From positions 434,001-498,000 of the forward strand of contig JAQGEQ010000244.1 of NCBI GenBank assembly GCA_034620365.1: a stretch of DNA of 64,000 nt, in the 5' to 3' direction. The notes under the pieces are model-generated. The model saw nothing but the letters and a program-made list of their open reading frames with translations, did no database searches and was not told the DNA's origin. Position 1 is the first letter of the stretch, and every line of letters begins with the position of its first letter. Below are positions 5,029 to 62,060 of the stretch, one piece after another. The position numbers were made by a program, and so were the translations under genes. Origin of the DNA: Pegea sp. RAD2-039. Taxonomy: Eukaryota > Chordata > Thaliacea > Salpida > Salpidae.

Positions 5029-5165
5029 ATCGACATATTGCCGATTTCAAAATTAACAAATGTTACTGCGGAGGTTCACTAACAGAAGAAAGTAGTGACT
5101 AATTCGATAAATTATTTCTCTCTTTTATCATGTTATTTCGATCTAGTATTTGTCAGGAGGAAAGT
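5029..5165 (+). repeat. Dispersed repeat core: hairpin plus CTAGTATTTGTC module
   Basis: The hairpin ATCGAC-ATATT-GCCGAT is at 5,029-5,045, and CTAGTATTTGTCAGGAGGAAA begins about 115 bases later at ~5,143. This is the two-part core of the dispersed family, forward orientation. One arm has a GCC for GTC change that weakens the pairing. The region is equivalent to 18,290-18,415, 31,751-31,866 and 47,281-47,415. Confidence 0.65.
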
Positions 5166-5676
5166 TATTTTCTATCTTTTATTTTTATCCAAACGTTTCA
5201 TTTATTAAAAACTGTTATACAATATTTATTTCTTTGACATCATTCTTATACAAGATTATATCTTACCTGTAGTTGCAAAATACTTTTTAGATTTAATTTT
5301 TCATGTAATTCTTGAAAACTAAATCTATTTAAAGTACTTTTTATCTGAAGCTAGTTTTATGAAGTTGAATATAACTTATATAAATACAAAAAATAATGTT
5401 TTGTAAGTTCAACGTATTTGAGCCAGACTATTCATCTAACAGATCTAAATAAAATTATCCATTAAATTGCTAACTTTACTAGCCATCTTAGACTAACAAT
5501 AAGACTTTATAAATTCTGATCAAAGTCAACGTTGTTAGATTAAATCATTAAAAATCAAGTTTAATGAAAGTTGCCTTAATTGAAAATTATACTTAAATTT
5601 TGTCATCTATACAGATCTTGTCGGAATACTTTCTTTCTGAATTTAATAAATTTAATGAATTAGAAAAAATTTGCAA

Positions 5677-5740
5677 AAACATAGCCTAAAGCAATAGAAG
5701 GTTTTTAAAATAATTTATCGGCAGCGACGTCTAGCGTCAA
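5677..5740 (+). repeat. ACATAGCC/GACGTCTAGCGTC conserved core, copy 1
   Basis: A roughly 65-base core begins AACATAGCC and ends with GACG-TCTAG-CGTC (5,726-5,738), which can form a 4-bp stem with a 5-nt loop. It recurs at 18,931, 21,902, 32,379 and 47,929, and inverted at 53,998 and 55,500. The core is richer in G+C and more conserved than the several hundred flanking bases, which also align weakly. It may be a small RNA or the conserved end of a mobile element. Confidence 0.5.
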
Positions 5741-6776
5741 AATTTTCGACTAAAAAATGAAAACCTAAAACAGTTTTTTTCTAATTTTATATAATAACGC
5801 TTTTAGTTAAACCAACAATTTTATTATTAGGTAAAGCCCTTTTCCGTAGATCAAGTTTTTATATTAATATTTTAGATCAATACAATTTATAAAGTAAAGT
5901 TTAATATTTTCTCACAAAAACTTAAGCTAAGAAGAAAACAAGAATGTTTTCGAAAAGACGAATTTATGTTTATAATAATTGTGACAGTAATAAGAAAAAC
6001 ATTTTATTGTCAACTAAGATTAGTAATCTGTGGAAAGTTGTTTAAACTCATATTCTTTGCAACTAGAAAAAGATTAAATTAAACTGTTAAGAAATCTTAT
6101 TTGGGTTGCAATTATAAAAATGCTAGTAAAAAAAGCCAAAAAAATTTCAGCAGATCATTTATAGACACGTCTTTTCACTTGAATAATTTGGGTTTTTTTT
6201 TAAACCATATAGTAAGTTAATTTTATAATCTTATTCCAAATTTTAAAAAAATATTTCTACAAAATGTTATTTCTTACAAGCAGATAGAAAGATATTAATT
6301 TCAACTTTCACAAAACGCTTTTGATTTTAAACATTTACACCACAAAATATTAACAATTAATTTTCAATAATTTGACTTTCCGATATAATTATGACTTTTA
6401 ATAAAACTTTGTTTAACAAATGTTGATCATCAAAAAAACTTTACTTAATTCTTGAACAAGTGTCACCGTAGAGTTCTTTTTAAAAAGTTTCGAAGCTGTA
6501 CATTGAGATTCAACTTTCTCAGGCATACCCTCTACAGTTTGGTTTTTGTGAAAAGTTTTTTAAGGATTTTATTCAATAATCTACCTAAATTTAAATACAA
6601 AAAACCAGATTATGAATTAGCAAACCTTTTCCAAATGCATACCAAAGGCATAAATTGATACTTTACTAGTTTGGTAATCATTCAAATAATTTCTTAAGAA
6701 CCTATTTAACATTGAAAGTCACATAAAAATAATTAACCTTTATTATGAAAGAATTTAAAAGAAACTTAATTTTTAA

Positions 6777-6795
6777 TATCGACCATTTGTCGATA
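6777..6795 (-). repeat. Dispersed hairpin TATCGAC-N5-GTCGATA (unit A, inverted copy)
   Basis: Perfect 7-bp arms (6,777-6,783 and 6,789-6,795) flank the loop CATTT. The following ATAATCCGA and the sequence ~110 bases downstream (a CAAATATTTG palindrome near 6,901) show that this copy is inverted relative to the one at 7,462. It is equivalent to 33,854 and 49,437. Confidence 0.7.
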
Positions 6796-7079
6796 GAATA
6801 ATCCGATAAATACAACTAGCAAAAACAGCAAACTTAAAAATTATAACTATTTGAATGTTTCAATTGAAATAATTAATTGACGTGATGATCAATTTGACAT
6901 CAAATATTTGTCGATATTATAGTTTTTGAATTATGAAAAAATTGTGGTTGTTCGATTACGTCACTATAAATTGAAGTGTTATTGATTAATGAAATAAGTT
7001 TTAACTAAATTCAAATTTCAAAATTATGCTTAAAATTCAATTCAGTTTGTCAGATTTTAACAAATATTTTCAAATTCAT

Positions 7080-8020
7080 TTTTCATGAATTGCTGGATAA
7101 TTTGAAATGATAGAAAAATCGAAAAAGTAATATAAACTAGAAATAAAGTTTTATTAAACTCACTACTTACAGTTCATTTGTTTATTGACTTTTTTACTAC
7201 CCACTAATTCTATTGATCTTCTCTAAAAAACAAATAGAAAAAATATTTTTAGGTAGTAATTCTTGTAACTTTTATTAATTCAAATCACCATCCTGTTGAA
7301 TACAATGACAAATAACAATTTCTTTAAAATTCAAAAACTATAAGATCGACAAATCTTTGATGACAAATTATAATTCACGAAATCTAATTTTTTGATTAAA
7401 ACATTCAAGCAGTTTTAAGTTTGAAAGTTTGTTCGAATTAATTCTTATATTTAGATTTATCTATCGACATATAGTCGATGTCAAAAATTTACAACAAATT
7501 TTTATGGCTTCTGAAATTAAGGAATATTTTTCATTATAAAAACGTTCCTTCATCTAGTATTTGTCCGGAGAAAAATAAATTTTTCGAAAATTATTATTCA
7601 TTTCATAAATTTGAACTATTTATAATAAGAAGAAAAATTTTGTGTGTCGAAAAAAAAGATAAGAACAAATTGTTGTTGCTAATTTTGATTAACTTATTTG
7701 AGATTTTTCTAATTTTCATTAAAACTATTTTTCGATATTTTTTAAGGTATGATTTGTAAGTTTGAAATCACTAAGTTGAGTCAATTTTTTGTAACCGACT
7801 ATTAATTTTTAATTACAAATCTCAATACAAGTGTTATTGAAAAAAGTAATAGAATGTTTTGTAAGGTCAAAGTCATTGAATAACACTATATGTCTAACAG
7901 ATCTAAGAATACAACATTTATAATTTTATCAAAAATGAGAATCAAACAGCACTAGCGACATCTTTTGACTGAAAAACTAGATAGAAAAATGCAATTATAT
8001 TTTACAAAATTTTTAATTTA
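7080..8020 (+). repeat. Near-complete forward copy of the dispersed repeat
   Basis: This copy shows the module order best. First comes a stretch containing CATGAATTGCTGGATAA (~7,085), then CCTGTTGAATACAATGAC (~7,292). The hairpin TATCGAC-ATATA-GTCGATG is at 7,462-7,480, and CTAGTATTTGTCCGGAGAAA is at ~7,553. AAAGTCATTGAATAACACTA is at ~7,870, and GACATCTTTTGACTGAAAAA at ~7,950. The 93-codon frame within it is open also in unit C but is made of repeat modules, so I do not call it a gene. The same order, inverted, is readable at about 55,770-56,310. Confidence 0.65.
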
Positions 8021-8549: not shown

Positions 8550-8631
8550 ATTATTGGCTTAGCAAGAATTATAAAGTTACATAACTTGGAAATGAAATAG
8601 TTTTCAAAAAATCCTAAAACAATATTTAAAT

Positions 8632-8700: not shown

Positions 8701-8761
8701 AAGTAAAGTAGTTTTATAAAAAGTTCTAGTTTTATAATCAGTTAGTATAAATTTTGCTTTC

Positions 8762-17424: not shown

Positions 17425-17742
17425 ATGGTTCATCAATATATATCTACAAATTGTTTATTTCAAAATCTTCTGCGTTTTGAAGAAGTAATACGTCTAATGT
17501 TTCATAATATTTCTTTTACTATCATCTCTTTCGATCTAATAATTGTTAAAACAAAAGTCTTTTTTATTAATTACATTCTCCTTTATAAGGTTGGTTTACT
17601 TAGAACTGTTAGAAAATGTTTTCCTTTGACAACAATTTTTAAATATTTTTTTTTACATTTGGATGGTTATTACTTTTTAGATTATAATTTTCAAAGGACA
17701 AGATCAAAAGTTGCTGTGAATATATTTTTCAATTCTGAATAA
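17425..17742 (+). other. Conserved 105-codon open frame, copy B (coding doubtful)
   Basis: Same frame as at 4,171, with only two residue changes by eye (D/N and N/F). Same doubts about coding. Confidence 0.2.
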
Positions 17743-18214: not shown

Positions 18215-18490
18215 ATGTTAGTATTAATGACAAGAGTTGAAAATAATATATTTGCAGAATGTCAATTTTTTGATAAAATTATTCGACACATTACCGGTTT
18301 TAAAATTAACAAATGTTACTGCGGAGGTTCACTAACAGAAGAAAGTAGTGACAAATTCGAAAAATTATTTTTCTCTTTTATCATTTTATTTCGATCTAGT
18401 ATTTGTCAGGAGAAAAGTTATTTTCTATCTTTTATTTTTTTCCAAACGTTTCATTTATTAAAAATTGTTAGACAATATTTAAATCTTTGA
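18215..18490 (+). repeat. Dispersed repeat core, copy B, containing a chance 91-codon frame
   Basis: A frame runs through the hairpin (near 18,291, with loop and arm changes) and the CTAGTATTTGTCAGGAGAAA module (~18,397). Its equivalent is interrupted in A and C and shorter in D, so it is not a conserved gene. Confidence 0.55.
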
Positions 18491-18992: not shown

Positions 18993-21901
18993 AAATTTTT
19001 CGACTAAAAAAACAAAAACCTAAAACAGTTTTATTCTAATTTTATATAATAACGCTTTTACTTAAACCAACAATTTTATTATTAGGTAAAGCCTTTTTCT
19101 GTAGATCAAGTTTTTATATTAATATGTTAGATCAATACATTTTATAAAGTAAATTTTAATATTTTCTCACAAAAACTTAAGCTAAGAAGAAAACAAGAAT
19201 GTTTTCGAAAAGACGAATTTATATTTATAATAGTTGTGACAGTAATAAAAAAAACATTTTATTGTCAACTGAGATTATTAATCTGTGGAAAGTTGTTTAA
19301 ACTCATATTCTATGCAACTAGAAAAAGATTAAATTAAACTGTTAAGAAATCTTATTTGGGTTGCAATTATAAAAATGCAGGTAAAAAAAGCCAAAAAAAA
19401 TTCAGCAGATCATTTAAAGACGCGTCTTTTCACTTAAATAACTCGGGTTTTCTTTTAAACCATATAGTAAGTTAGTTTTTTTTATCTTATTCCAAATTTT
19501 TCGACAAAATGTTTTTACAAAATGTTAGTTCTTACAAGCAGACAAAAATATATTCATTTCAACTTTCATAAAACGCTTTTCAGTTTAAACATTTTTACCA
19601 CAAAATAATAATAATTAAGTTTCAATTATTTGACTTTTCGATATAGTTATGATTTTTTATAACACTTTGTTTAACAAATGTTAATCATCAAAAAAACTTC
19701 ATTCAATTGTTGAACAAGTATCATCGTAAAATTCTTTTTAACGAATTTCGAAGCTGTACATTGAGATTCAACTTTCTCAGGCATGCCATCTACAGTTTAG
19801 TGTTTGTGAAAAGTTTTTGAACGATTTTATTCAATAATCTACCTAAATTTATAAAATAAAATAAATCTATAAAATCTGTAAAATAAAAAAATCAAACATA
19901 AAAATGAAACAGAGACATTTTGTCACTGGAAAAAGTAGTAGATAAAAGATTTTTTATGTTTCACTGACACACAATAGCATAATGCGAACAAAGATGTTAT
20001 AATTAAAAATCAAATGAAAATTGAAAATCAAGTCAAGTAATATTATCAATGAAACATTCAAAGCAATTTTAAAATTGAAAGTTTGCAGTTATTTTTTTGA
20101 TACAATTATCGGATTACTTTATAGACACATAGTCGATATCAAAAATAGAAATCTGTTTCAGATCTTGCAATGAAAGTTAGGAAACACTTCTTGATATAGT
20201 AATAGATTTTCATCTTGTATTTGTCTAGAAAAGATTTAAAATCTAGACTTATATTTGAAAGTTAGATTTTTAACAACTGTGTGATATTTTTTTTTCTTTT
20301 GATATCAATATTATAAAAAAATTATTTCCTACTTCTTATTACATAATACATTTCAGTTTTAAAATTTAAAATGATTTCAAACTAACACTATTACAAATAC
20401 CTTTTTATGTTGATTTTATTGTATGAGTATCAAAAAACCTTGAATGAATTTTAAAAAAGGAAGTTTTGCTAGATAGATACAAAATTCTAAATAGAAATGA
20501 TAGAATTGTACACAAAATTTACTTGGATTGAATTTACAAAAATTAACGTTTTCATTTAATTTAATGAATTTAAATGAATTAATAACTTATATATATACAA
20601 TAATTTTATACATTATTTATAAACTATTGTCTACTACATAGTGCTTATTCAAAATTAGTTTTCAACTTTCCAAGAATTTTTTAAAAGTAAAATTATTACA
20701 AATAGTTTCTATGTGAAGCTCATTGTTTGACTTTTAATAAAACTGATATAAATATTAAAAAGGAATGTACTGGAATCCTAAAGTCACTGAGCAACACTAT
20801 TTGTCTAGTAGACATAAGAGTACAAGAATTCACAATTTCTTTAGATATAAAGATAAAACTATTATAAAGTATAGATGTTGTGTTTGAAGATTGAAAAATT
20901 AGACAAATAAAAAAATATTTTTAATTTCTATTAATGTTAAGTTTTTTCATGAATCGCTTAATAATTTGAAAAAGTTAAAAGTAAAATTTATAAGCATAAA
21001 AATAAACAAATAAAAATTCTATTAATAATTATTGCTAATTTACTAAATTTATTTATTGACTATTTTGCTACCCACTAAATTTACTCATTTTCTTTAAAAA
21101 AACAAATTAAAAAAATAATTTTAGGAGTAATCTTTGTAAGTTCTTGTAATTCGAGTCACTTTCCTGTTGAATACAACGACAAAAAACAATTTCTTCAAAT
21201 CTCCATTATTATTTTTTCTACAAACAAATATTTGATATCAAATTGTAATTCACGAAATCTAATTTATTATTTGAAATATCCAATCAGTTTTAAATTTGAA
21301 AATTAGTTTGAATTAATTTTCAATTAATTTATCGACAATGGTCGATGTCCAAAATTTATAAATGATTGATTAGCGAATGTTTTGTAACCGAGGAATATTT
21401 TTCATTATAAAAACGTTTTTTTCATCTTGTATTTGTCTGAAAAAAATATTTTTCAAAAATTATTTTTTATTTCATAAATTTGAATAAATTTTAATCATGA
21501 GATTAATTTTGTATGTTGACAATAAAGAAAAAAACAAATTACTTTTACTAATTTTGATTACTTTATTTAAGATTTTTCTAATTTTGATCGAAATTATTCC
21601 TTTATATTTTTAAATAAACTCAAATACAATGAAAATTAAAAACGTTTTTAATCGGCAGCATCTACCAAAATAAAATAGTAGATAGTTTGATAGATTTTTA
21701 TTACATAAAAATTTATGTTAAAAAGTGTTAAGTTACTTTACATTTAAAATAAAAAAAATAATTTCCTAAAAAAATTTTAATTTTGTTTGATACGAAAAAC
21801 TACTTGTTAAGATAGTTTTGTTTTCAATTTAAACATATTTATTCGTAATTTCAACAAAGTTTGAAAATAAGTCTTAAAATTCTAGTTATCAAATATCACT
21901 T

Positions 21902-31750: not shown

Positions 31751-31866
31751 AATCGACACATTGTCGATTTCAAAATTAACAAATGTTACTGCGGAGGTTC
31801 ACTAACAGAAGAAATTATTTCTCTGTTTTATCATTTTATTTTGATCTAGTATTTGTCCGGAGAAAA
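31751..31866 (+). repeat. Dispersed repeat core, copy C
   Basis: Hairpin AATCGAC-ACATT-GTCGATT (31,751-31,769), then CTAGTATTTGTCCGGAGAAA from about 31,846. The arms are perfect 7-bp but with outer A-T pairs swapped relative to TATCGAC/GTCGATA, so pairing is kept although the sequence changed. Confidence 0.65.
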
Positions 31867-33853: not shown

Positions 33854-33872
33854 AATCGACCATTTGTCGATA
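33854..33872 (-). repeat. Dispersed hairpin AATCGAC-CATTT-GTCGATA
   Basis: Inverted copy equivalent to 6,777; the outermost pair is now A-A. The upstream ~33,400-33,770 holds a further repeat with CATTCAAACTATCCTGCAAT (near 33,649), which recurs at ~49,230 and ~53,360. Confidence 0.65.
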
Positions 33873-34159: not shown

Positions 34160-35100
34160 TCATGAATTGCTGGATAATTTGAAATGATATAAAAATAGAA
34201 AAAGTAATATAAACTAGAAATAAAGTTTTATTAAACTCACTACTTACAGTTACTTTGTTTATTGACTTTTTTACTACCCACTAATTTTATTGATCTTCTC
34301 TAAAAAACAAATATAAAAAATATTTTTAGATAGTAATTCTTGTAACTTTTATTAATTCAAATCACCATCCTGTTGAATACAATGACAAATAACAATTTCT
34401 TTAAAATTCAAAAACTATAAGATCGACAAATCTTTGATGACAAATTATAATTCACGAAACCTAATTTTTTGATTAAAACATTCAAGCAGTTTTAAATTTG
34501 AAAGTTTGTTCGAATTAATTCTTATATTTGGATTTATCTATCGACATATAGTCGATGTCAAAAATTTACAACAAATTTTTATGGTTTCTGAAATTAAGGA
34601 ATATTTTTCATTATAAAAACGTTCCTTCATCTAGTATTTGTCCGGAGAAAAATATATTTTTCGAAAATTATTATTCATTTCATAAATTTGAACTATTTAT
34701 AATAAGAAGAAAAATTTTGTGTGTCGAAAAAAAAGATAAAAACAAATTGTTGTTGCTAATTTTGATTAACTTATTTGAGATTTTTCTAATTTTCATTAAA
34801 ACTATTTTTCGATATTTTTTAAGGTATGATTTGTAAGTTTGAAATCACTAAGTTGAGTAAATTTTTTGTAACCGACTATTAATTTTTAATTACAAATCTC
34901 AATACAAGTGTTATTGAAAAAAGTAATAGAATGTTTTGTAAGGTCAAAGTCATTGAATAACACTATTTGTCTAACAGATCTAAGGATACAGCATTTATAA
35001 TTTTATCAAAAATGAGAATCAAACAGCTCTATCGACATCTTTTGACTGAAAAACTAGATAGAAAAATGCAATTATATTTTACAAAATTTTTAATTTAAAG
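34160..35100 (+). repeat. Near-complete forward copy of the dispersed repeat (unit C)
   Basis: Collinear with 7,080-8,020. The hairpin TATCGAC-ATATA-GTCGATG is at 34,539-34,557, with the CTAGTATTTGTCCGGAGAAA module starting about 90 bases later at ~34,630. The 93-codon frame across it differs from the unit A one by only two residues; I still regard it as repeat sequence. Confidence 0.65.
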
Positions 35101-38391: not shown

Positions 38392-40731
38392 TTAGACAAA
38401 TAAAAATGGCATTGTAGGTAGTTCGTTGAGTTTACTTAAAATATTTTTAAAGGTAATTTTTTTTCTATTTATTTTAGAGATATTTTCTAAGATTGATAAG
38501 TATTCATTAAACAAATTGGTCTTCAAATTGAGAGCATAGCTTTGATTAAAATTTCTGCATACTTTTGCAACAGTTACTTGAATGCAAGTTATTAGTTTAA
38601 AAAAACATTCCTCATTAGATGGAGTAATTCTATCATCCAACAAGGTAGGCAAAATCTTCAAAAAAATGAAGAAGTTTTGTAATATTTCTACTATTAATTT
38701 AGCAGAATTTGAATTATTTATCATCAAACTTCTTATCATTATCAGCCATCCTTCAAAATTTATCATACTTAAATTATTCCATCCAATATAATAATGGAAA
38801 CACGTTCCGGTAAGAAAAAATTTTAACTTTTGTATTACAGCTCTCTTATGTTCTTTTGTATAATCGATAAACTTAGGAGCTAGCAAAGTAAACAACCAAA
38901 CTTTTCGTTTTAGTAAAAATATTGATTTAAAAATTGGCTCAACTTCTTCCTTCTGAATTCGTGAATGCTGGTGAAATTTCAGGATTATATCCTTTTTCAA
39001 ATCATTTATCTTTTTTGATTCTGTAGTAATAAAATCTACAGGCAATCTTAAGAAATCATCCTGTAAGATAGAACTGATAAGACCAATTACACGATGTTTT
39101 TCTTTATCAAAGTATATAAAAAAGTCTAAATAGTTTTGTGATGATTCTGGCTTTTCAATTTGAAAATTTGTGTATTCAAACGGAAATTCTACAAAAGCAA
39201 AAAACTCTAGTGAACTTTTAGATGGTGATAAAAGCAATTGATGCAATAAACAATCAAAAAACGTTTTAAGCATCACGTCTTTTACAAACAAGTTGTCATA
39301 TTTCTTTGTTTTATCAAGAATCTTATAAAACATTTTATCTAAAAGTTGACATTTTTCACCACTTGAGTACTCCTTTGTATGTTTTCTATTTAAAAAGCAA
39401 TCTTGCGACTTGTTGCTAGCATTATTATTCAGCAATTTTACTAAACAAATATTCAGTTGTTTCTTTAGAGCAAAAGCTAGAGTAACTAACAAGAATATAA
39501 TCCTCAGACTTTTAGAAATAGACCGGTATGTGTTTTGATCTCTAAAGCATTTTAAAACCGTTGAGTTTAATACTGAAAACAAAAAAACATCACTCGTAAG
39601 AGAAATTATAAATTCATCGCTAAGATAAACTTGTTTTTCTTTTTCTTTAAGACTTTCTCCCAGTTCGAACTCATAATGATTGAACTGTAATCTCTTATAG
39701 ATAGTTTTGTTTACATATAAACCGTTTGCAATCTTCTTCAATTCATTAGATTTAAAGCCTGGAATTAATTTGTAAGAACAAACCAACTGTATTAACCAAT
39801 CAAAACAAACTAAAGCTGACGAAAGCGTAGTAATCAATGATTTCTCAGTCTCAATTACATGCTTGGTAAACTCAGTTTTGCATAATTTGTGAATCTCGTT
39901 TGAGCAAAAAGTTTGTCTAGGAACATATATTTGATTTCCATTTGATAAATGGACAAATAAAAGCAAGTCACAATACATTATAAGTTCTCTAATAAATGTT
40001 GCTGCTTTCTCATAAGCTGAAGAGTAATAAATTTGGCACTGATGAAAACAGATAGTTTTGTGAGCATACCCATCTAAAAATGACAGATATGTTTGCAATT
40101 CATTTAACCCATATTGAAAATATGACGTATTTGTCGGGGATGAAGAGAAGGAAAAGTATTTTATCAACTCAACAAATCGCTTATTAGTTTGTTTAAAGTT
40201 TGTTTTTGAAGTTGTTATAAACACGTTTAGAATTTGCGACAAGAAACATGAAAAAGCAATTGTCTTCAAGTTCAGCAAAGTTTTAGATGAATCCAAACCT
40301 TCAGCAATTATCAAACAATGTTTCAAAAGTTCCAAACAAACAAAATGTTCTTTCACTGATTTATCTTTATTTAAGGAATATGCCACTCCAAAGTGAAAAA
40401 ATAGTGTTACTAAAACCATTTCATATGAAAAGTTACTAACATTGAAATCTTTTAGCTTAAATACCCTAACAAAATTATCATCTTGAGATATCCAATAAAT
40501 GCATCCAGGTAAAGCAATTTTGTTTCTCAGAAAAAGATGAGACATGCAATCAAGTTTATCGGTATCAAAATTATCATGATTGTATTTATGTTGAAGTTCT
40601 AAATTATTTTTGAATACTTCATTTGTAAAAATAAATTGAAACATTCTACCTTGCAAAATGTAGAACTTGTTTTCTTTTATCTTGTACTGTTTTACAAACT
40701 CGAAAAACTTATCAGCTTTAAAACTAGACAT
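38392..40731 (-). CDS. Unknown 779-residue protein, the only uninterrupted copy
   Basis: A single open frame of 779 codons starting MSSFKADKFFEF and ending MPFLFV before TAA. I recognise no family, catalytic motif, signal peptide or clear membrane segment. The composition is rich in Leu, Phe, Lys, Asn and Ile, with many cysteines, and looks like an all-helical cytosolic or nuclear protein; that is inference. The ATG is followed in A, B and C by the same MSS start, which fixes the start. It converges on the plus-strand terminal exon at 38,310; the 3' ends overlap. An AGTAAA variant replaces the AATAAA of copy A after the stop. Differences from A are mostly residue-changing (for example five in the 17-residue stretch starting NFNQSYALN), so constraint looks weak. 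Confidence 0.8.
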   Translation of the reverse strand: MSSFKADKFFEFVKQYKIKENKFYILQGRMFQFIFTNEVFKNNLELQHKYNHDNFDTDKLDCMSHLFLRNKIALPGCIYWISQDDNFVRVFKLKDFNVSNFSYEMVLVTLFFHFGVAYSLNKDKSVKEHFVCLELLKHCLIIAEGLDSSKTLLNLKTIAFSCFLSQILNVFITTSKTNFKQTNKRFVELIKYFSFSSSPTNTSYFQYGLNELQTYLSFLDGYAHKTICFHQCQIYYSSAYEKAATFIRELIMYCDLLLFVHLSNGNQIYVPRQTFCSNEIHKLCKTEFTKHVIETEKSLITTLSSALVCFDWLIQLVCSYKLIPGFKSNELKKIANGLYVNKTIYKRLQFNHYEFELGESLKEKEKQVYLSDEFIISLTSDVFLFSVLNSTVLKCFRDQNTYRSISKSLRIIFLLVTLAFALKKQLNICLVKLLNNNASNKSQDCFLNRKHTKEYSSGEKCQLLDKMFYKILDKTKKYDNLFVKDVMLKTFFDCLLHQLLLSPSKSSLEFFAFVEFPFEYTNFQIEKPESSQNYLDFFIYFDKEKHRVIGLISSILQDDFLRLPVDFITTESKKINDLKKDIILKFHQHSRIQKEEVEPIFKSIFLLKRKVWLFTLLAPKFIDYTKEHKRAVIQKLKFFLTGTCFHYYIGWNNLSMINFEGWLIMIRSLMINNSNSAKLIVEILQNFFIFLKILPTLLDDRITPSNEECFFKLITCIQVTVAKVCRNFNQSYALNLKTNLFNEYLSILENISKINRKKITFKNILSKLNELPTMPFLFV

Positions 40732-43630: not shown

Positions 43631-44022
43631 CAAAGAACTTAAAAGAAGGACAGAAAGGTCAGCAGTTCAAGTGATTAATTTCGAAAAATATTCAACAGAA
43701 AACTTTAGAAATAAAAGTTAATGTTAAACACTTTTTGTGAAATGTTGTTTGGTAGAAAGTTCTTGAAGAAGCTTCAGTAAATTTTTTTTTTATTTAATGT
43801 ATTTTGCAGGATTTGAACAAAGAAACAAAATATATTTTTTAAAATTTTCTAAATTATTTTTTTTGTTAAAAGAATTTTAAGAAACTGTTTTAGTAAAAAA
43901 ACCTATTTTTTGTTTTTCATCAAATTAAAATCATATATTTAGCCAATATATATTAATATTAGCAACTGTTTGCTTTTTATAAAATACTTTTTTTGTTTGT
44001 CATCTTTTTAAGTGAAGTATGC

Positions 44023-44604
44023 ATGTATCTAATTAGATTGAAACTAAATTTGATGGACAACAAACAAATTTATCGGAAGCGAAAGTTGTTATCAACTAAA
44101 AGTAACATCGACCATAAGACTTCAAAAAAGCAACATTCAAATAAATTATTTAGTGGAGAGGATGGTTGGCACGAATGTATCGTTGATGAAATTACTTGTA
44201 ACAATGAAAGAGAAAATATAACAAAGATGAGTAATTCGTCAACCAAAAGTAATAAATCAGCAGAAGTAGTAATTGAAGAAAAAAAATGTTTGGTTAAAAA
44301 AGTTTCAAATTGGAAATACAAATATGAATGTTTGATTTGTTGCAGACAATTTAATTTCAAATTTCAACTTGTCAATCATGAAAGAACTCATACTGGTGAG
44401 AAACCATATGATTGTATTGTTTGTGGAAGAAGGTTTAATCAAAAATCAAATCTCACAAAACATGAAAGAACTCATACTGGCGATAAACCATATGAATGCA
44501 TGGCTTGTGGAAAACAATTTCGTCATAAAGCACATCTTTCGTACCATCAAAGGGCTCATAATAATCAGAAAGAAAATTATTTTTTCAAACCATACTGTAA
44601 ATAA
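44023..44604 (+). CDS. Three-finger C2H2 zinc-finger protein, intact copy
   Basis: 193 residues from the ATG at 44,023; a second ATG at 44,053 gives MDNKQIYRKRK and is the one kept in the B/C remnants, so either may be used. The N-terminal ~95 residues are polar and basic, with a nuclear-localisation-like YRKRK at 17-21. Three C-x2-C-x12-H-x3-H fingers follow at about 101-123, 129-151 and 157-179, joined by TGEKP and TGDKP, so they are expected to bind DNA side by side. Finger 2 carries the helix QKSNLTK, common in DNA-binding fingers. A short basic tail ends KPYCK. It is presumably a nuclear transcription regulator; targets cannot be read from sequence. AATAAA overlaps the stop codon (44,600-44,605). 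Confidence 0.85.
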   Translation: MYLIRLKLNLMDNKQIYRKRKLLSTKSNIDHKTSKKQHSNKLFSGEDGWHECIVDEITCNNERENITKMSNSSTKSNKSAEVVIEEKKCLVKKVSNWKYKYECLICCRQFNFKFQLVNHERTHTGEKPYDCIVCGRRFNQKSNLTKHERTHTGDKPYECMACGKQFRHKAHLSYHQRAHNNQKENYFFKPYCK

Positions 44605-46428: not shown

Positions 46429-46740
46429 ATGGTTAATCAATATATATCTGCAAATTGTTTATTTCCAAATCTTCTGCGTTTCAAAGAAGTAATAATGTTT
46501 CATAATATTTCTTTTACTATCATCTCTTTCGATCTAATAATTGTCAAAAGAAAAGTCAATTTTATCAATTACATTCTCCTTTATAAGGTTGGTTTACTTA
46601 GAACTGTTAGAAAATGTTTTCCTTTGACAACAATTTTTAAATATTTTTTTTTACATTTGGATGGTTATTACTTTTTAGATTATAATTTTCAAAGGACAAG
46701 ATCAAAAGTTGCTGTGAATATATTTTTCAATTCTGAATAA
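46429..46740 (+). other. Conserved open frame, copy D, 103 codons (coding doubtful)
   Basis: Has lost 6 bases in frame and carries several residue changes near the start (N for H, P for Q, K for E). The C-terminal half is unchanged. Coding remains unproven. Confidence 0.2.
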
Positions 46741-47280: not shown

Positions 47281-47415
47281 AATCGACACATTGCCGATTT
47301 CAAAATTAACAAATGCTATTGCGGAGGTTCACTAACAGAAGAAAGTAGTGACCATTCGAAATATTATATCTCTCTTTTATCATTTTATTTCGATCTAGTA
47401 TTTGTCAGGAGAAAA
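47281..47415 (+). repeat. Dispersed repeat core, copy D
   Basis: Hairpin AATCGAC-ACATT-GCCGATT (47,281-47,299) and CTAGTATTTGTCAGGAGAAA from ~47,395. It lies inside an 81-codon frame that I do not consider a gene. Confidence 0.6.
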
Positions 47416-49436: not shown

Positions 49437-50290
49437 TATCGACCATTTGTCGATAGAATAATCCGACAAATACAACTAACAAAGAACAGCAAACTTAAAA
49501 TTTAAAACTACTTGAATGTTTTAATTATAATAATTAATTGACGTGATGATCAATTTGACATCAAATATTTGTCAATATTATAGTTTTTGAATTTTGAAAA
49601 AATTGTGGTTTGTCGTTGCATTCAATTGGATAGTGACTTGATTTAATAAACTTACGATGATTACTAACTAAATGATTTATTTAGAATATCAATTAATTTA
49701 TTGGGTAGCAAAGTAAAACGATAAAATTTTCATAAAATAGCGATATTAAATGAAATTCCTTTTTTCAATTTTAGAATTATAATTGTACCAATAACTTGTC
49801 GGTGATGTAATTAGAAAGTTGTAGTTTGTTTATCGTAGTTAACCAGTTTAAAATCAAACTTTCTCCTATTTTTGATTAGTGCCATTAAAGAAGGTAATAT
49901 TTTAATTTGTTTAGTCTTACTATTAGTTATTAATGGTTTATTTGAGTAGAGTTAATTCGTTTTTTTTTCATTCTTTGTTGTTTTAACTTCTTTCAATGAA
50001 ATAAATCAAAGATACTTTATCTTAGAAAATTTACACAACAAACGAAGAAGAAACTATCTTTACATAATTATTGCAAACTTAAACTGCAAATTTAAAAATA
50101 TTCTAACGTTATTCTTGCGAATGTCAAACAAATTTAAAAGCTTTTTATTTTGTTAAATTACTGTTTTCAACTGAAAAATTATAATTTGAGTTGCTTTATT
50201 TGCTAATGTGAAATTTTGTGAAAAGAAAAACATTACGGATGAAAATTTAAAAAGTTTAAATAGAAAGTTGAAGACAGTTTCATTCAAATC
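49437..50290 (-). repeat. Inverted copy of the dispersed repeat, paired with ~60,967-62,060
   Basis: Begins with the perfect hairpin TATCGAC-CATTT-GTCGATA (49,437-49,455). From ~49,580 it aligns with ~61,110-62,060 over stretches such as GTGGTTTGTCGTTG, ATCAATTAATTTATTGGGTA and CCAGTTTAAAATC. Near 49,786 ACCAATAACTTGTCGGT is a decayed version of the hairpin that is intact at 61,325. This is the point where the macro-unit array ends. Confidence 0.65.
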
Positions 50291-52880
50291 ATAACAACAA
50301 CATATCGACGCTATACTTAAAATAAAAACAAGTCTCTAAAGCAAATTCAGTGAACTGGAACTTTTCGTCTGGTATGAAGTTTAATTTGATTTGATAAATA
50401 AAATATGAGATGAAAATAAAACATTTGGCTTAAAAACTACTGTATCAAGAAGTTTATGAACTATCTAAAATTGTAATCACATCAAAACTAAGATATCAAA
50501 CTTTTATTAAAATAGCAGAATTAACAACTTTAGTTTTCACCTCTGTATGTAATAGAAATTAATTTTAGAAATATTTAAGAGGATGCAATTGTAATAAAGT
50601 TGAAGAATAAAACAATTTTAAAGACATTCTAGTGTTTCAACTTAAAGTAAAAAGAACAATAAGAACAATTATTTAGAAATCTTCTAGATTTTTAAATTTG
50701 AAAAAACGAATAATAATAAAAATCAAATTAAGATTAATTTAATTTTCTCTTTAAAACTTTTAATATTTTAATCAAACATTATTATTTACTATTTTATTTT
50801 CATGCAAATTATGTATCAGTAATGTTGTTTTTTAAAAATTTTTATAAATGTTAAATATACTATTATATGTCAGTGAAATAAATAAAAACCTTTTATTCAC
50901 TACTTTTTTTCAGTCACAAGATGTCTCTGTTTCATCATCACAATCGATTTTTTTATCTTATAGAATTAGTGTTTTGTGTTGAGATCTGTAGACATTTAGT
51001 TTTTCTTACTAACTTTGAGCTTACAAGAAACTATATTTAAATTTTAAGAAACAGTTTTATCTAAAATCATCTTATTTTTTTCACAACGAAAATACTTTTA
51101 ACTCATTTTAGTGATAAGAAATCTCTTAAAACTTAGTTTTGAAACTAATTTTAGAGAAATTAAGAATTACCAAATAGTAAAAAGATAATTGACATTTTTT
51201 TAGAATACAAAACATGTTTTCGTTGTCCCAAAAAAAAAAGAAGCTTATACAGAAAATTGAATTTTGAAAAGTCAGTTTTGTCCGGACAAATACTAGATTG
51301 AACTTAATTAATATATATATAAAGAAATATCAATTAGCGACTTGTTGGTCTAGTCACTAGTCCAAAATCACCCATTTGAAGTCGACAAACGTGTCGATGT
51401 CCTTAAAACAAATTAGTTGTAATTGGTTAGTAACCTTGTCTCTGAAAACTTCATGAAATTCAGAATAATTGTATAACCGCTGAAAACATGTATTTTGTCG
51501 ATAGGATAGCTTAGGATTTTTTAATAAGTTCAAACAATATTTCAACAAACAATGAAAACTTTGATTATAGATAAAAGGAATTAAACAATTTGAATAGCTA
51601 GTTTTTGTAACTTTTATTTATTGGTAATTTTGTTAGCTAATAAATTTAAAAGTATTTTAGAAAGTGTTTAAAATATAATTATTGTATTTAGTTAGTTACT
51701 TTGGGTGAAAATTAATAAATAATATGTGTGGATATTATAAAATATCTTAAACTAAGTATCATTATAATATTTTTGTTATTGACATTTGCCAAAGATCTAA
51801 CCGTTAAGATGTAATTTTAAAGCTGCAAGCTATATCATGAGTTAATTAGTAACTTTTTATAGTTAAACTTTCTGATAATCAACATATAGCTAATTTCAAA
51901 TTAAAGTTTGTACAAAATTGTGTTTGGCTTTAAGAATTTTTCTTTGTTCTAATTGAACCAAAAACTGCAAGTCTTAGAAAGGCTAATTTATAAGGTTGTT
52001 TTTTCCTACGTTGGCCTGGATAAGAAATTTGTATCTCTTGCGTCATTTTTAAATCTGATAATCTCATTTGAATTATAAGCATAATTTTGAAATATGAATT
52101 TAGCTAAAGACTATTTCATTACTCAACAATGTCTTAATTTATAGTGACGTAATCGAACAAGTTGATTTTGATCAAAAAATTAAAAGGTTTTACTGTTATT
52201 GTTAGATGACTTACACAGTTATAAAATTAAAACTAAAATAATTTTTTGTGTTGCTAATATAAGCAAAAACATCTAACTACAACTTTCTCGTTCGCAAATT
52301 TTTAAACTCAAATTGTTTTTTTAAATTTGATGTAACAAATTGTAGGATTTTAAACAAAAGATTTCATTTTGCTGAAGTTATCAATTATTTCGATATTTAT
52401 TATCAGGTATATTTTGAAGGTTTATTTTATATGTTTTCTATTGATATGAAGTATTCTAAAATTAAACTTTAAACTATATAAACTAAAAGAAATATTTGTA
52501 ATTTGTTTTAATTTTTATTGAAATTAGTTTATTTAACCTTTGAATTTAAAACAATTAAGAAAATGGTTTTGTTTTAATATTAAATTTATAATCATAAGAT
52601 TTCTCTACTATAAATTCATTTTTAAATTATTTATAAAATTTTTTTAAATGTTGCGTCTTACTGTCGGTTATCAAATTTTAAGTTAAATCAGTGACTTCGA
52701 ATTTCCAAAATACGTTTTTAAAAATATGCAAAAATACTTTCAGTCTAAATTAGAAAATATCAAATAAGGTATTCAAAATTAGCAAAAGCAATTTGTTTGT
52801 AATTATTTTTGTCAACATACAAAACTATTCTTTTTATTATGAATAAGTCAAATTTGTGAGAAAGAGAATAATTTTCGAAA
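50291..52880 (-). repeat. Decayed dispersed-repeat sequence, no gene
   Basis: Modules recognisable in inverted orientation are CAGTCACAAGATGTC near 50,913, and a 14-bp palindrome TTTGTCCGGACAAA at 51,277-51,290 continuing into TACTAGATTG. Also present is a hairpin-like TCGACAAACGTGTCGA at 51,382-51,397. The 63-codon minus frame at 51,357-51,548 overlaps this hairpin and is not a gene. Stretches between these modules show nothing. Confidence 0.5.
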
Positions 52881-52888: not shown

Positions 52889-53520
52889 TTCTCCGGACAA
52901 AAACTAGATTAAAAGGAGTTTTTATTATGAAGAAAGTTCTTCTGTATAAGATTGGACTTTCTATTAAGATGCTTATTTTTGGTATCGACCATTTGTCGAT
53001 AAATTAATGCGAAGATTTATACGGAGAAACACAAACAAATATTCAAAGTTACAACATCTTGATTGTTTCAATTAATAAAATTAAACTCCGTGAATTGCAA
53101 TTTGGCATCAAATGTTTGTCGATTTTATACTTTCGAAACTTTAAAGAAATTGTTATTTGTTGTTGTATTCAACGGGATAATAATTTGAATAATTAAAAGT
53201 TACGAGAATAACTACCTGAAAATATTTTTTTTATTTGTTTTTTATAGAAGATCAATAGAGTTAGTTGGTAGCAAAGTAGTCAATAAACAAAGTAACTGTA
53301 AATAGTGAATTAAACAAAACTTAATTTCTACTTTAAAATTACTTTTAATATTTTTATATCCATTCAAACTATCCTGCAATCCATGAAAAACAAATTTAAA
53401 ATTATTAGTTAAATAAATTGCAAGATCGAAGAATCACTAAAACTTACTATCAATCAACAACTTGTCAAAGATAACTGAGTCTCACCACTACTCTTCTGCA
53501 TTTTTTTATGTAAACTATTA
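52889..53520 (-). repeat. Inverted dispersed repeat with intact hairpin
   Basis: CTCCGGACAAA…CTAGATT near 52,892, then TATCGAC-CATTT-GTCGATA at 52,983-53,001, then TTGTTGTATTCAACGGGATA near 53,158. At 53,350-53,480 the CATTCAAACTATCCTGCAAT and CTTGTCAAAGATAACT segments match ~33,649-33,760 and ~49,230-49,345. Confidence 0.65.
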
Positions 53521-55769: not shown

Positions 55770-56310
55770 ATCTGTCAGACAAATAATTTTTCTCAATGAC
55801 TCAGACCTTACAAAACATTCAAACACTTTTCTCAATAATCCTTGTATTGAAATCTGTCAATAAAAACTGATGGACGGTTACAAAAATTTGACTCAACTTA
55901 GCGACTATGAATTTCCAAAGCATAAATTTTAAAAAATATCCTGAAAAAATTTTGACCGAAATTAGAAAAATCTCAAATAAGTTAAATAAAATTCGTAAAA
56001 GCAATTTATTTTGTTTTTATTGTCAACATATATAAAACTATTCTTATGATTCTAAATAATTTAAATTTTTTTAATGACTAATAATTTTCAAAAATAATTT
56101 TTCTCCGGACAAATACTAGATGAAACAACGCTTTTATAATTAAAAATGTTTAGTTATCATTGCTTAACAGTGATGAAACATTAATTTTTGATATCGACTA
56201 CTCGTCGATAGATTAATCCGAAAATAAAAGCTAACAAAATTAAGTTTACTTTCAAATTTAAATCTGCTTGGATGTTTCAATTAATAGAATTACATGGCGT
56301 GAATATCATT
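55770..56310 (-). repeat. Near-complete inverted copy of the dispersed repeat
   Basis: In minus sense the order is as at 7,462-7,870: hairpin TATCGAC-TACTC-GTCGATA (56,192-56,210), CTCCGGACAAATACTAGAT (~56,104), then the GACTCAACTTAGCGACT stretch (~55,890) and AATGACTCAGACCTTAC (~55,795). The loop sequence differs from all other copies while the arms are perfect. The 61-codon frame at 55,819-56,004 is part of this repeat. Confidence 0.65.
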
Positions 56311-57436: not shown

Positions 57437-58436
57437 GAGTAAACCTGACTTGAACAAAATATTTGCGATTTGTCTCACCTTTATTAAAGTTTAGTAGATA
57501 AAACTTTAAATTGAAATTTTTGTAAAATTTATTTGTATTTTACTATTTATTTTTCAGTCACAAGATGTCACTATATTAGTCGTATGTTTATATTTTATAA
57601 TTTTTATAAACGTTGCATTCTCCTATCTTTCAGACTAATAGTGTTACTCAGTGACTTTGAGCTTACCAAGCACTGTGTAGTAAAATTTATACAAGTTTTA
57701 TTTATATCCTACAAAAAGCTTTTCATAAACCGTATTTGTAAAAGTCTTAGTTTTACAAAATCATTAAACACTTTAAAACAGCAGTCAGTAACAACCATTA
57801 GAAAGATTAAATACACAAAATAATGAAAACCGTAATAAGACTATATTTTATTTGTTAAATTATTAAAAAAAAATTACTTTTAGCAATTAAGCAAGTTTCA
57901 ATAAAATTGTTGATTATACTGAGTATTTAGTTTTTAGCCACCATTAGTACCTATTTAATGGATCAAATGAGGGGATTTTGGCGTTTTCAGGTTTTCTCTT
58001 TGTAAAGCGTCGTTTGCTTTGTTTTATGATTTCTAAGATGAATTGTAATAACAGCATGTCTTTTAGGATTTTATTTTTAAAATATTTACATTCTGGTTTT
58101 ACCACAATTTTAGAAAAATTTCTAGTGTATATAATAAAATTTATGCTCTGTAAAAAAACAATAAAAAATACGATCTAAAGTTCTAATAGATTATCATTTT
58201 TTTTTTTATTGAAGCAATGCGCTGTTATCTACTTAATAACATTTTTAATGTAGTGGAATGATTGTTAAAAGTTGTTAAATGTTGTGTTAAATTAAAACCA
58301 AATATTTTTCAGTCTTACAAACTAATTTTAATCAACTGTTTGTATGTTACATAAATAGGTTAAAAAAAAACATTACTTAAAATATACTAAGAAAAAATTT
58401 TAATCAAATTCTACCTTTTCAATTCATTCAGATTCT
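57437..58436 (+). repeat. 1,000 bp tandem repeat, copy 1
   Basis: Identical at every base I compared to 58,437-59,436, offset exactly 1,000; identity runs on to 59,458. It contains, inverted, the family modules CAGTCACAAGATGTC (~57,556) and AGTGTTACTCAGTGACTTTG (~57,640). The frames of 96 and 66 codons inside are duplicated with it and have no coding support. Confidence 0.95.
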
Positions 58437-59436
58437 GAGTAAACCTGACTTGAACAAAATATTTGCGATTTGTCTCACCTTTATTAAAGTTTAGTAGATA
58501 AAACTTTAAATTGAAATTTTTGTAAAATTTATTTGTATTTTACTATTTATTTTTCAGTCACAAGATGTCACTATATTAGTCGTATGTTTATATTTTATAA
58601 TTTTTATAAACGTTGCATTCTCCTATCTTTCAGACTAATAGTGTTACTCAGTGACTTTGAGCTTACCAAGCACTGTGTAGTAAAATTTATACAAGTTTTA
58701 TTTATATCCTACAAAAAGCTTTTCATAAACCGTATTTGTAAAAGTCTTAGTTTTACAAAATCATTAAACACTTTAAAACAGCAGTCAGTAACAACCATTA
58801 GAAAGATTAAATACACAAAATAATGAAAACCGTAATAAGACTATATTTTATTTGTTAAATTATTAAAAAAAAATTACTTTTAGCAATTAAGCAAGTTTCA
58901 ATAAAATTGTTGATTATACTGAGTATTTAGTTTTTAGCCACCATTAGTACCTATTTAATGGATCAAATGAGGGGATTTTGGCGTTTTCAGGTTTTCTCTT
59001 TGTAAAGCGTCGTTTGCTTTGTTTTATGATTTCTAAGATGAATTGTAATAACAGCATGTCTTTTAGGATTTTATTTTTAAAATATTTACATTCTGGTTTT
59101 ACCACAATTTTAGAAAAATTTCTAGTGTATATAATAAAATTTATGCTCTGTAAAAAAACAATAAAAAATACGATCTAAAGTTCTAATAGATTATCATTTT
59201 TTTTTTTATTGAAGCAATGCGCTGTTATCTACTTAATAACATTTTTAATGTAGTGGAATGATTGTTAAAAGTTGTTAAATGTTGTGTTAAATTAAAACCA
59301 AATATTTTTCAGTCTTACAAACTAATTTTAATCAACTGTTTGTATGTTACATAAATAGGTTAAAAAAAAACATTACTTAAAATATACTAAGAAAAAATTT
59401 TAATCAAATTCTACCTTTTCAATTCATTCAGATTCT
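58437..59436 (+). repeat. 1,000 bp tandem repeat, copy 2
   Basis: Exact copy of the preceding unit. The first differences from copy 1 are at 57,436/58,436 on the left and 58,459/59,459 on the right, which bounds the duplicated tract. Confidence 0.95.
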
Positions 59437-59700
59437 GAGTAAACCTGACTTGAACAAATTATTTGCGATTTGTCTCACTTTTTTTAAAGTTTAGTACATT
59501 AAACTTTAAATTAAAACTTTTGTAAAATTTATTTATATTTTACTATTTATTTTTCAGCCACGAGATGTCACTATATTTGTCGTTTGTTTATATTTTTTTA
59601 TTTTATAAACGTTGTATTCTCCTACCTTTCAGAAAAATAGTGTTACTCAATGACTTTGAGCTTACCAAAGATTGTTTATTTAAATTTATACAATTTTATG
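59437..59700 (+). repeat. Truncated, diverged third copy of the 1 kb repeat
   Basis: Begins like the perfect copies, then accumulates substitutions (TCAGCCACGAGATGTC for TCAGTCACAAGATGTC) and stops matching after about 260 bases. Confidence 0.75.
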
Positions 59701-59759
59701 TATAATCATACAATTAGCTTACATTTTTCTCGAAACATAATATTGGAATTGAAAAATGT

Positions 59760-60110
59760 TCAATATTACACTCAACTCAGTGACTTCGAACTTCCAAAAC
59801 ATATTTTGAAAAATATCCAGTAAAAGTTTCGGCAAAAATTAGAAAAATATCAAATAAGCTAATCAAAATTAGCAAAAGCAATTTGTTTTTATCTTTTTTG
59901 GGAACATACAAATTAATACTTACGATTATGAATAAGCAAACTTACGAAATGAGGAAAAATTATTTACGAAAGATATCTTCTCTCCGGACAAACACTAGAT
60001 ATAAAGTAGTTTTTATTATGAATAATATTCCTCAGTACGCATATACATAGACTTTATAACTGTAACAATTTTTGATATCGACCATTTGTCGATAGATTAA
60101 TCCGAATAAA
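59760..60110 (-). repeat. Inverted dispersed repeat with intact hairpin
   Basis: ACTCAACTCAGTGACTTCG near 59,770, CTCCGGACAAACACTAGAT near 59,983, and hairpin TATCGAC-CATTT-GTCGATA at 60,076-60,094. Part of it (CGAACTTC…CATTTTCATAAATATTCAG) is repeated again at ~60,126-60,300. Confidence 0.65.
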
Positions 60111-60309
60111 TCTTAATTTAAATTTCGAACTTCAAAAAACACATTTTCATAAATATTCAGAAATAGTTTCGACCAAAATTAGAAAAATCTCGAATAAGAT
60201 AATTAAAATTACTAAAAACATTCCTTATTTCGTTTAATTTTTGTATTTTAGGGTCGTTTACAAAATTGTAACTTAAATTAGTGATTTGAAACTTCCAAAA
60301 CATTTTGTA

Positions 60310-60860
60310 TTTTTTAATTGAAAAATAATAGTAATTTGCTTCTAGTCGTAAATCATTGACTGATAGATGTTTGAAAAAAAAGAAGAATTTTCGTTGATGT
60401 TTGTTTTCCTATTTACTGGAAGCTTTTACGTAATTTTTAACGCCGTAATTATAATATGTTTGTTGAAATTATAGTGATCATAAAATTTCATAAATATTGC
60501 TTGGTTGTATCTTAAGATAGCAAATTATTTAGAAATAACAATTGATATACTGTTTCCTTTTTGAAAATCTTTTTTCGATTTGTCTTATACTTAGTACTAT
60601 GAATTTTCATAATTGCTTCTTCTTTGACACTTTAATTTCCTAATATAGAAAGTCATGCCTAGGATAAATTTAGAAAAATATTTAATGTTCGTATAAAATT
60701 TATATGTTTTGTTAAAGTTATGGGAAGTTTAGAACTAAAATGTATTTCTCACCTAAAAGTAGGAAATAATTTTTCTATAAGATTGATATCTAAAGTAGAT
60801 AAAAAGCGTCGCACAGTTTTAAATAAATCAAACTTTTAAAGATAAATGAATATTTATAAT
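60310..60860. other. Repeat segment shared with 54,490 and 63,530; no gene
   Basis: Contains GTAATTTGCTTCTAGTCGTAAATCATTGACTG-type sequence and TTTTCGTTGATGTTTG, matching ~54,545-54,720. After ~60,550 I see nothing but AT-rich sequence. Confidence 0.5.
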
Positions 60861-60867
60861 TTGGTTT

Positions 60868-62060
60868 TCCTCCTGACAAATACTAGATGGAAAGATATTT
60901 TTATATCAAGTTTTTGGGTTTTGGTCTACGAGATTAAAGTGTCCTTGTATTTTTGGTTATTTTTGATATCGACTATGTGTCGATAGATTGTCCTGGTAAT
61001 TGCAACTAAGAAATAACAGAAAACTTTCAAATTTAAAAGTTTTTGATTTTTTTACATAATAAAATTACTTGACGTCATGTTCAGTTTGACACCAAATATT
61101 TGTCGATATTATAATTTTTGAATTTTCAAGAAACTGTGGTTTGTCGTTGTATTCATTGGGATAGTGATTTGATTTACAAAATCTACGGTGATTACTAACT
61201 AAAGGAATTTGTTTCTTAGAATATCAATTAATTTATTGGGTATCAAAATGATTAAAAGTAAAATTACTATAAACTAACGATAGTAAGCTAAAACTTTTTT
61301 CTTCTACTTTAGAATAACAATTGTACCGATAACTTGTCGGTGATGTAGTTGGAAAGATGTAACTTAGATTTAGTAATTAACCAGTTTAAAATCTAACTCT
61401 CTCCTATTTTTGAATAGAGCCATTTAAGAAGGTATCATTTTAATTTGTTATTCTTATCATTTGTTATTAGTTATAATTTTATTTGAATAGAGTTATTTGG
61501 TTATGTCCATTCTCTGTTTTTTTAACTTTATTTAATAAAATAAATCAAAAATATTTTATATTAAAAAATTTAAACAACAAACGAGGATGAAACAATATTT
61601 ACAAAAAAATATTGCAAACTTTTACTGTAAATCTAAAACTACTTGAAACAGAAGTTGATAACTAACCTTAGAAGTATTTTGAAAAAAGTTTATTTTGTCA
61701 ATTTAATTATTCGCTTCGGCAAAAAAAAATATTTTTTTTATTTTGTCAGCAAATGCAGTTCAACATTTAAAATGTCAACAACTGGCTTTCAGATTTTTCA
61801 TTATTTATAGTGTTTAAATAATCATTCAAATCTTAACTCCTGGTAATAACTATTTGAATCATTCTTATATTTGTTAATGATTAAAAAGTTCTTTTGAAGT
61901 TTATTTAACCTCATGTTTTGGTTTCAACTTTCATTAGTTGGAAATACTAAATTCTAACGTAAAATTGTGACTGTAAAGCAAATTAAAACGCTTATTTTTC
62001 TTTTATTATTGTTTAAAAAAAACAGTTTGAGTTGCTTCATTTGCTAATGTTAAATTGAGG
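60868..62060 (-). repeat. Inverted dispersed repeat carrying a second type of hairpin
   Basis: CTCCTGACAAATACTAGAT near 60,870, then TATCGAC-TATGT-GTCGATA at 60,967-60,985. Near 61,325-61,341 ACCGAT-AACTT-GTCGGT forms a second hairpin, again with a 5-nt loop and one G-T pair. The long flank aligns with 49,580-50,220. Confidence 0.65.

Follow-up and report, generated by a model that had tools for sequence, protein, structure and literature searches.

A candidate family of very short Sm-class snRNA-like genes with fast-changing heads in the salp Pegea sp. RAD2-039

The window analysed here, i.e. a 64,000-nt stretch of the genome of the salp Pegea sp. RAD2-039 (assembly GCA_034620365.1, contig JAQGEQ010000244.1, positions 434,001 to 498,000, forward strand), carries a family of short hairpins of the form TATCGAC-N5-GTCGATA, which probably belong to very short genes of the small nuclear RNA (snRNA) type. 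All 15 hairpins reported in an initial annotation are real (5028, 6777, 7462, 20120, 21330, 31751, 33854, 34539, 47281, 49437, 51380, 52983, 56192, 60076 and 60967). The pattern TATCGACN5GTCGATA, with up to 3 mismatches allowed, matches the window 16 times, as against a mean of 0.80 and a maximum of 4 in 100 dinucleotide shuffles of it. These matches comprise 13 of the reported hairpins, one extra copy (539) and two stretches of flank sequence (6898 and 33975); the remaining two hairpins, at 21330 (4-nt loop) and 51380 (6-nt loop), were found outside the strict 5-nt-loop pattern. The 15 hairpins are not independent. Positions 1-49000 hold a 13.4-kb unit in 3-4 tandem copies (spacing 13.25-15.5 kb, 69-100% alike), so that several hairpins share an origin: 5028/31751/47281, 6777/33854/49437 and 7462/34539 are copies of three loci.

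Directly before the dyad, in one orientation only, lies an Sm-type site, AATTTTTGA (variants: TAATTTTGA, AATATTTTGA and TTTTTTTGA), and a loosely shared stretch follows the dyad. An alignment of 35 representative copies gave the order of the blocks: CCKGACAAATACTAGAT about 85-100 nt upstream of the dyad, a TATA-like stretch, a very variable stretch of 20-30 nt (hereafter the head) and AATTTTTGA. The upstream block is a proximal sequence element (PSE) of the kind found in snRNA genes. The Sm site, the promoter and the hypervariable stretch were not seen in the initial annotation. The copies in the window are as follows.

56109..56121, plus strand: PSE of a complete copy, ACAAATACTAGAT (14/14 including the preceding G), with ACAAAYACTA in common with the U2 and U6 PSEs
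56164..56210, plus strand: predicted RNA of the same copy (variable head, Sm site, hairpin 56192-56210), its start placed 55 nt past the PSE start as in U2
539..648, minus strand: snRNA-like gene (PSE 636-648, Sm site, hairpin 539-557 with a G-U pair)
4187..4292, minus strand: decayed copy (PSE-like 4280-4292, broken hairpin 4187-4205; PSE places converted by hand)
17441-17546 and 30910-31015, with a PSE-like remnant at 46532-46544: similar decayed copies, resembling that at 4187..4292
5028..5153, minus strand: snRNA-like gene of the 8-bp/3-nt hairpin subfamily, with a G-U pair (PSE 5141-5153)
6777..6795, plus strand: hairpin copy with no recognisable promoter, probably a pseudogene (tandem copies 33854-33872 and 49437-49455)
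7462..7564, minus strand: snRNA-like gene (PSE 7552-7564)
18281..18406, minus strand: tandem copy of the 5028 gene (hairpin 18281-18299 decayed, PSE 18394-18406 intact)
20120..20224, minus strand: snRNA-like gene, one stem position unpaired (PSE 20212-20224)
21330..21436, minus strand: snRNA-like gene, 4-nt loop (PSE 21424-21436)
31751..31856, minus strand: snRNA-like gene, 8-bp/3-nt hairpin AATCGACA-ATG-TGTCGATT (PSE 31844-31856)
34539..34641, minus strand: snRNA-like gene (PSE 34629-34641)
47281..47405, minus strand: snRNA-like gene, stem with a G-U pair (PSE 47393-47405)
51286..51399, plus strand: snRNA-like gene, the copy previously called irregular, stem with a G-U pair (hairpin 51380-51399)
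52897..53001, plus strand: snRNA-like gene (PSE 52897-52909, hairpin 52983-53001)
59988..60094, plus strand: snRNA-like gene (PSE 59988-60000, hairpin 60076-60094)
60876..60985, plus strand: snRNA-like gene (PSE 60876-60888, hairpin 60967-60985)

The best PSE match of the 6777 and 33854 copies is 8/14, and at 49437, a tandem copy of the same locus, no PSE was found within 137 nt upstream. As for protein-coding genes at the hairpin, no open reading frame (ORF) of more than 67 aa occurs in locus L022, and this candidate was rejected.

The PSE, GACAAATACTAGAT, is matched at 11/14 or more in 67 of the 72 unique sites with enough flank, the other five scoring 8-9. Its distance to the Sm site is 74-98 nt and exactly 77 nt in 29 of the 67. 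Judged by this, a SNAPc-type PSE appears to stand where Sm-class snRNA genes carry theirs. For comparison we used the U2 genes (19 matches, six loci read) and U6 genes (15 matches, 13 above the cut-off, eight read) of the same genome. All 14 genes read contain ACAAACACTA (U2 6/6, U6 8/8), in the form CCCACAAACACTA in six U2 and five U6 genes and CTAACAAACACTA in three U6 genes, and the PSE of the hairpin family has ACAAAYACTA in common with them. The element starts 55 nt ahead of the U2 RNA and 60-61 nt ahead of U6, and the TATA offset from the PSE start is 24-26 nt in U2 and 29-31 nt in U6. Among the family elements scoring at least 12/14 (n=66), 56 have a TATA, at an offset of 23-26 nt in 48, 29-30 nt in five and elsewhere in three. 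Most copies thus have the U2-like (RNA polymerase II, Pol II) spacing and not that of U6, and since TATA lies at U2 spacing in most elements, Pol II is the predicted polymerase. By the U2 start rule the predicted RNA has a modal length of 50 nt (29/66), with a range of 47-58 nt except for two of 70-71 nt. The Sm site has the form A-U4-6-G (in few copies U3) and is followed by a 3' stem-loop, as in Sm-class snRNAs; an Sm site with a hairpin is the standard loading signal for the Sm ring.

Two further observations concern the promoters. The downstream flank from about +100 to +140 (e.g. window 6898 and 33975) contains ATCAAATATTTGT, whose other strand resembles the promoter element and which is possibly an opposed promoter; the stretch from +100 to +119 changes slowly (1.8%). 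On contigs C32, C39, C49, C81 and C114, U2 genes have U6 genes nearby, and none of these contigs is among those listed for the hairpin family.

In the 105.7-Mb assembly the exact dyad occurs at 226 places, and a reversed control gave none. Contigs C1-C90 would be free of it, as the 50 places listed begin at C91, apparently in contig order. Extended to 33 nt, the pattern has 250 matches (123 + 127; control 0) at up to 3 mismatches. With 0 or 1 mismatch all places are on C91, C95, C103, C254 and C266; for 2-3 mismatches the contigs are given only among the matches listed. C255 joins the family contigs through a genome search with one head. The promoter element alone, CCNGACAAATACTAGAT, has 298 exact places (reversed control 0), of which the 100 listed lie on C60, C89, C91, C93 and C95. 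On C60, C89 and C93 the heads are longer and the hairpin is a related one of 7-8 bp, (A)ATCGACA-ATC-TGTCGAT(T); 12 of the 13 loci read there follow the same gene plan, the exception (L072) having lost the Sm site and hairpin to a repeat. The best reading of these counts is a family of several hundred genes, and the best explanation of its spread is segment duplication within a limited set of contigs. Gene pairs facing each other 700-720 bp apart recur on C91 and other contigs (e.g. L022, 1510+ / 2224-), one member having the loop CATTT or CGTTT and the other TACTC.

The initial annotation had proposed selection on the dyad, possibly as an RNA hairpin, and the rates of change support this option. 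In 21 disjoint pairs of related copies the arms differ at 2/294 positions, whereas near flanks differ at 249/5176 and 105/2500 and far flanks at 458/8524 and 343/8348 (4.1-5.4%; non-aligning far flanks, 6 upstream and 7 downstream, were left out). Between related copies the arms are thus much better conserved than the flanks. The copy at 31751 was correctly described: both outer bases are changed (A-T for T-A) and pairing is kept. Hand selection gave 37 distinct hairpins, in which 91.1% of cells are paired, as against 88.5% in shuffles, none of 500 being as high. One-sided wobbles account for 14 cells; both-sided changes account for five, all at the outer pair, and 23 cells are unpaired, 13 of them at the outer pair. 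Only 2 A-C mismatches, counted by eye, occur in the inner six pairs. Among 99 unfiltered, profile-derived sites the non-Watson-Crick cells are 36 G-U, 12 A-C and 73 other. This preference for G-U over A-C suggests an RNA stem, since a DNA dyad would show none. Covariation in the arms, the check proposed earlier, lends modest support: arm pairing is in excess, but the covariation score was reached by 38/500 shuffles and the number of double-change pairs by 476/500.

The head behaves in the opposite way. In the same 21 pairs it differs at 77/611 positions (12.6%) plus 100 gap columns, i.e. 0.16 gap columns per aligned base versus 0.01-0.04 in the flanks, and between related copies it changes 2-3 times faster than the flanks. 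The TATA stretch (5.7%) and the loop (3.8%) change at the flank rate; the PSE differs at 2.9%. In 23 disjoint nearest pairs the differences are 69/677 in the head, 352/8453 in the flanks and 2/322 in the arms, and pairs chosen by one flank and measured on the other gave the same order of rates. A less biased set started from matches to the promoter profile, with or without a dyad after them, in the window and in ten loci of 10 kb each; its 67 hits, 38 of them with an intact hairpin by a strict pattern, yielded 18 disjoint pairs. Here the head differs at 68/521 (13.1%), upstream and downstream flanks at 508/7928 (6.4%), arms at 5/251 (2.0%), the PSE at 3.0% and the Sm site at 4.2% (Fisher p against flanks: head 1.2e-7, arms 0.002, PSE 0.03, Sm 0.33); some bias remains in this set, as the ten loci were selected because they are dense in sites and every pair was built on a reference copy whose hairpin is intact. 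The heads have a median length of 27 nt when measured from PSE+50, and 74 of them group into about 30 clusters. They show no excess of structure over shuffles (mean z 0.00, n 60) and no conserved 5' hairpin.

Genome-wide searches with two heads, allowing up to 3 mismatches, found 12 places for one head and 17 for the other. Of the 12, all but one (C266:586017) lie just upstream of listed extended-form dyads. Of the 17, six coincide with promoter elements, six more were fetched and are family genes, and five fall outside this check. The longest exact matches of 59 heads, on either strand of 0.32 Mb, average 13.4 nt compared with 12.5 nt when the heads are shuffled, and the longest of all seem to be copies of the same genes. 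When heads were compared with U2, U6, an rRNA locus (L040) and two ORFs of the window, the mean lengths of complementary runs (G-U allowed) differed from those of shuffles by no more than about 0.5 nt. The longest such run, between one head and L040, reaches 17 nt, the maximum in 295 shuffles being 14. These figures leave room for short pairing of heads with targets; in one figure legend the endogenous U7 snRNA pairs over 10-16 nt (PMC7026596).

Based on these features, we consider it probable that the hairpins are stem-loops at the 3' ends of RNAs encoded by very short genes of the Sm snRNA class, and we hold with somewhat greater confidence that the copies are, or recently were, PSE-driven genes of Sm-class RNAs. 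SNAPc would bind the upstream element and recruit Pol II, as at the U2 genes of the same genome. The transcript would measure about 50 nt, and as much as about 70 nt in side branches. It would comprise a single-stranded head of 20-30 nt, then the Sm site AAUUUUUGA and finally the hairpin UAUCGAC-N5-GUCGAUA, and an Sm ring loaded onto the latter two would give a stable ribonucleoprotein (RNP). The fast-changing head might then contact a changing partner, most simply through base-pairing as in U7, and we tentatively suggest that it is the recognition or guide part. Sm-class RNAs are few, conserved and mostly spliceosomal, and in U7 the same chassis aims the RNP through a short 5' sequence. It is a rather doubtful speculation that several hundred Sm-ring RNPs with fast-diversifying guides form an RNA-guided system on an snRNA/U7 chassis, locked in an arms race with a changing target, for instance viruses, transposons or selfish chromosomes. 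If true, a shared promoter and Sm tail with fast-changing heads would be the snRNA counterpart of the piRNA or CRISPR repertoires.

Several results weigh against the view of the hairpins as ends of Sm-class genes. Covariation is weak and double changes are limited to one pair. In close pairs the Sm site changes at the flank rate (9/189, 4.8%; 7/168 in the less biased set), as does the TATA stretch, and the 11 nt past the hairpin change faster than the flanks (8-11%; 8.2% in the 21 pairs). Given the overlap in a 20-nt profile of 25 pairs (head windows 9.5% and 7.6%, dyad 1.6%, others 1.8-7.9%), the excess in the head is clear only in the segment test and the gaps. Most loci were fetched by the dyad, which inflates arm conservation, a bias that the less biased set lowers and does not remove, and 29 of the 67 profile hits in that set have no intact hairpin by the strict pattern. 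The two heads searched met no long near-perfect target (23 of the 29 places were checked, all of them family genes). For the two loci compared with Rfam at E up to 10, all hits were at chance level, including SL2 (E 6) and U4 (E 1.6). The copies might instead be inactive snRNA-derived repeats, pseudogene-like or satellite-like, spread by segment duplication. The many decayed copies, the three window copies devoid of a promoter and the repeat-rich surroundings in the window would fit such repeats, and since the flanks of close pairs change no faster than the Sm site, Sm-class genes become slightly less probable and dead repeats a little more so. We nevertheless regard such repeats as unlikely: dead copies would change evenly, whereas arms are slower and heads faster than flanks, and the promoter, TATA spacing and Sm-type site persist even though in 1978 of 2211 pairs the flanks have diverged by 12-30%.

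The length, clustering and variability of the heads would also suit single-gene piRNA-like loci, in which a PSE promoter drives a short Pol II RNA, the hairpin is only a 3' processing signal and the trimmed head is the product. Nematode 21U-RNA promoters provide a precedent, and an snRNA-related promoter motif does lie upstream of 67 of the 72 sites, as in nematode-type piRNA minigenes. This appears rather improbable, as it makes the canonical Sm-type site and the constrained hairpin superfluous, the predicted first base (n=50: A 18, T 15, G 10, C 7) shows no bias and no excess of U, and no genomic target was seen for the two heads searched. Very short spliced-leader (SL) RNAs like those of Ciona, with many different leader exons, would have the observed size and tail, and many heads do hold GT, some with a fair donor score. 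A donor must follow the leader, yet GT occurs at the shuffled level (0.814 versus 0.803; 30 clusters, 74 heads), shuffled and reversed heads both have a higher mean best donor score, and 9 of 59 heads have no GT, by which this very unlikely explanation is mostly refuted. Least credible of all is a DNA-level site for protein binding or site-specific recombination. The similarity boundaries in BLAST comparisons between copies, at -9 and about +30 of the dyad, are sharp, flanks on either side differ in some pairs, and five inverted dyad pairs 701-714 bp apart occur among the 47 places listed on C91. For a gene, however, these boundaries are the expected ones, the first at the Sm site and the second shortly beyond the predicted RNA end. 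One-sided G-U changes spoil a DNA dyad and keep an RNA stem, and the promoter is confined to one side, where its distance is almost constant. The wobble changes also weigh somewhat against a terminal repeat of a DNA transposon. The recombination-site idea was dropped once the Sm site and PSE were seen; likewise, the recombination or replication signal and the bare protein-binding palindrome of the initial annotation leave the one-sided Sm site, the snRNA-type promoter at its nearly constant distance and the hypervariable stretch unexplained.

Comparison with known RNAs places the putative genes closest to small Sm-class systems. At the gathering score, Rfam found no match in the window besides tRNA, and hence no described snRNA family or histone mRNA 3' stem-loop. 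U7 has a non-canonical Sm site, complementarity to the histone downstream element, and Lsm10/Lsm11. The U7 model RF00066 gave at best 23.1 bits genome-wide (cut-off 34), and none of its 16 listed matches is in a family contig. U7 is described as an RNA of about 60 nt with a target-pairing 5' end, the sequence of which sets specificity, an Sm-type site and a 3' stem-loop, all resembling the present family (PMC7026596). The present family, in contrast, has a canonical, spliceosomal-type Sm site, comprises hundreds of genes and varies in its heads from locus to locus, and RF00066 gives nothing above the cut-off in this genome. With U2, whose promoter class is shared with U6, the family has in common the PSE and TATA mostly at U2 spacing, the Sm-type site and the 3' hairpin; unlike spliceosomal snRNA genes it is about 50 nt long (versus 100-200), has no Rfam match and changes fast in its 5' part.

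SL RNAs of Ciona, Hydra and nematodes are likewise short, multicopy and of the Sm class according to PMC7986045, in which that of Ciona has 46 nt, an Sm-type site and at least 670 copies, those of Hydra carry AAUUUUGA, and the SLIDR program seeks sites such as ATTTTTG bookended by inverted repeats. The present family differs from them in having no splice-donor signal and no head common to all members. The Drosophila LU snRNA, a recently described Sm-class RNA with a PSEA/PSEB promoter, is a single 116-nt gene with alignable orthologues and not a hypervariable family (PMC4053861). Nematode 21U-RNA genes are described in PMC6436959 as clustered loci with a SNAPc-related promoter motif each and primary transcripts of about 28 nt with a short variable product. 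They resemble the family in these respects; the Sm-type site and hairpin set ours apart, as do its hundreds of loci compared with the more than 15,000 given in PMC7917550. In the parts of open-licence full texts that the literature search covered, which included work on U7, SL, SmY, LU and nematode piRNAs, no hypervariable Sm-class family was found.

Apart from the hairpins, the tandem unit contains a C2H2 zinc-finger ORF (1757-2364 and 43963-44604) and an ORF of about 780 aa read in three copies, which is open throughout only at 38392-40731 (minus strand) and broken in the other two. The 779-aa product of the intact copy has no Pfam match, matches in PDB only at E 0.3 or more, and a weak NCBIfam match to the pyrrolysyl-tRNA ligase C-terminal domain (E 1.2e-4, 21.5 bits against a cut-off of 178). 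Elsewhere in the genome, the surroundings of the 5.8S matches L039, L041 and L042 (on C125, C1 and C278) look by eye like broken, dispersed rRNA gene fragments. Positions 57437-59458 of the window form a tandem duplication with an offset of exactly 1000 bp, identical over 1022 bp, which is either very recent or an assembly artefact.

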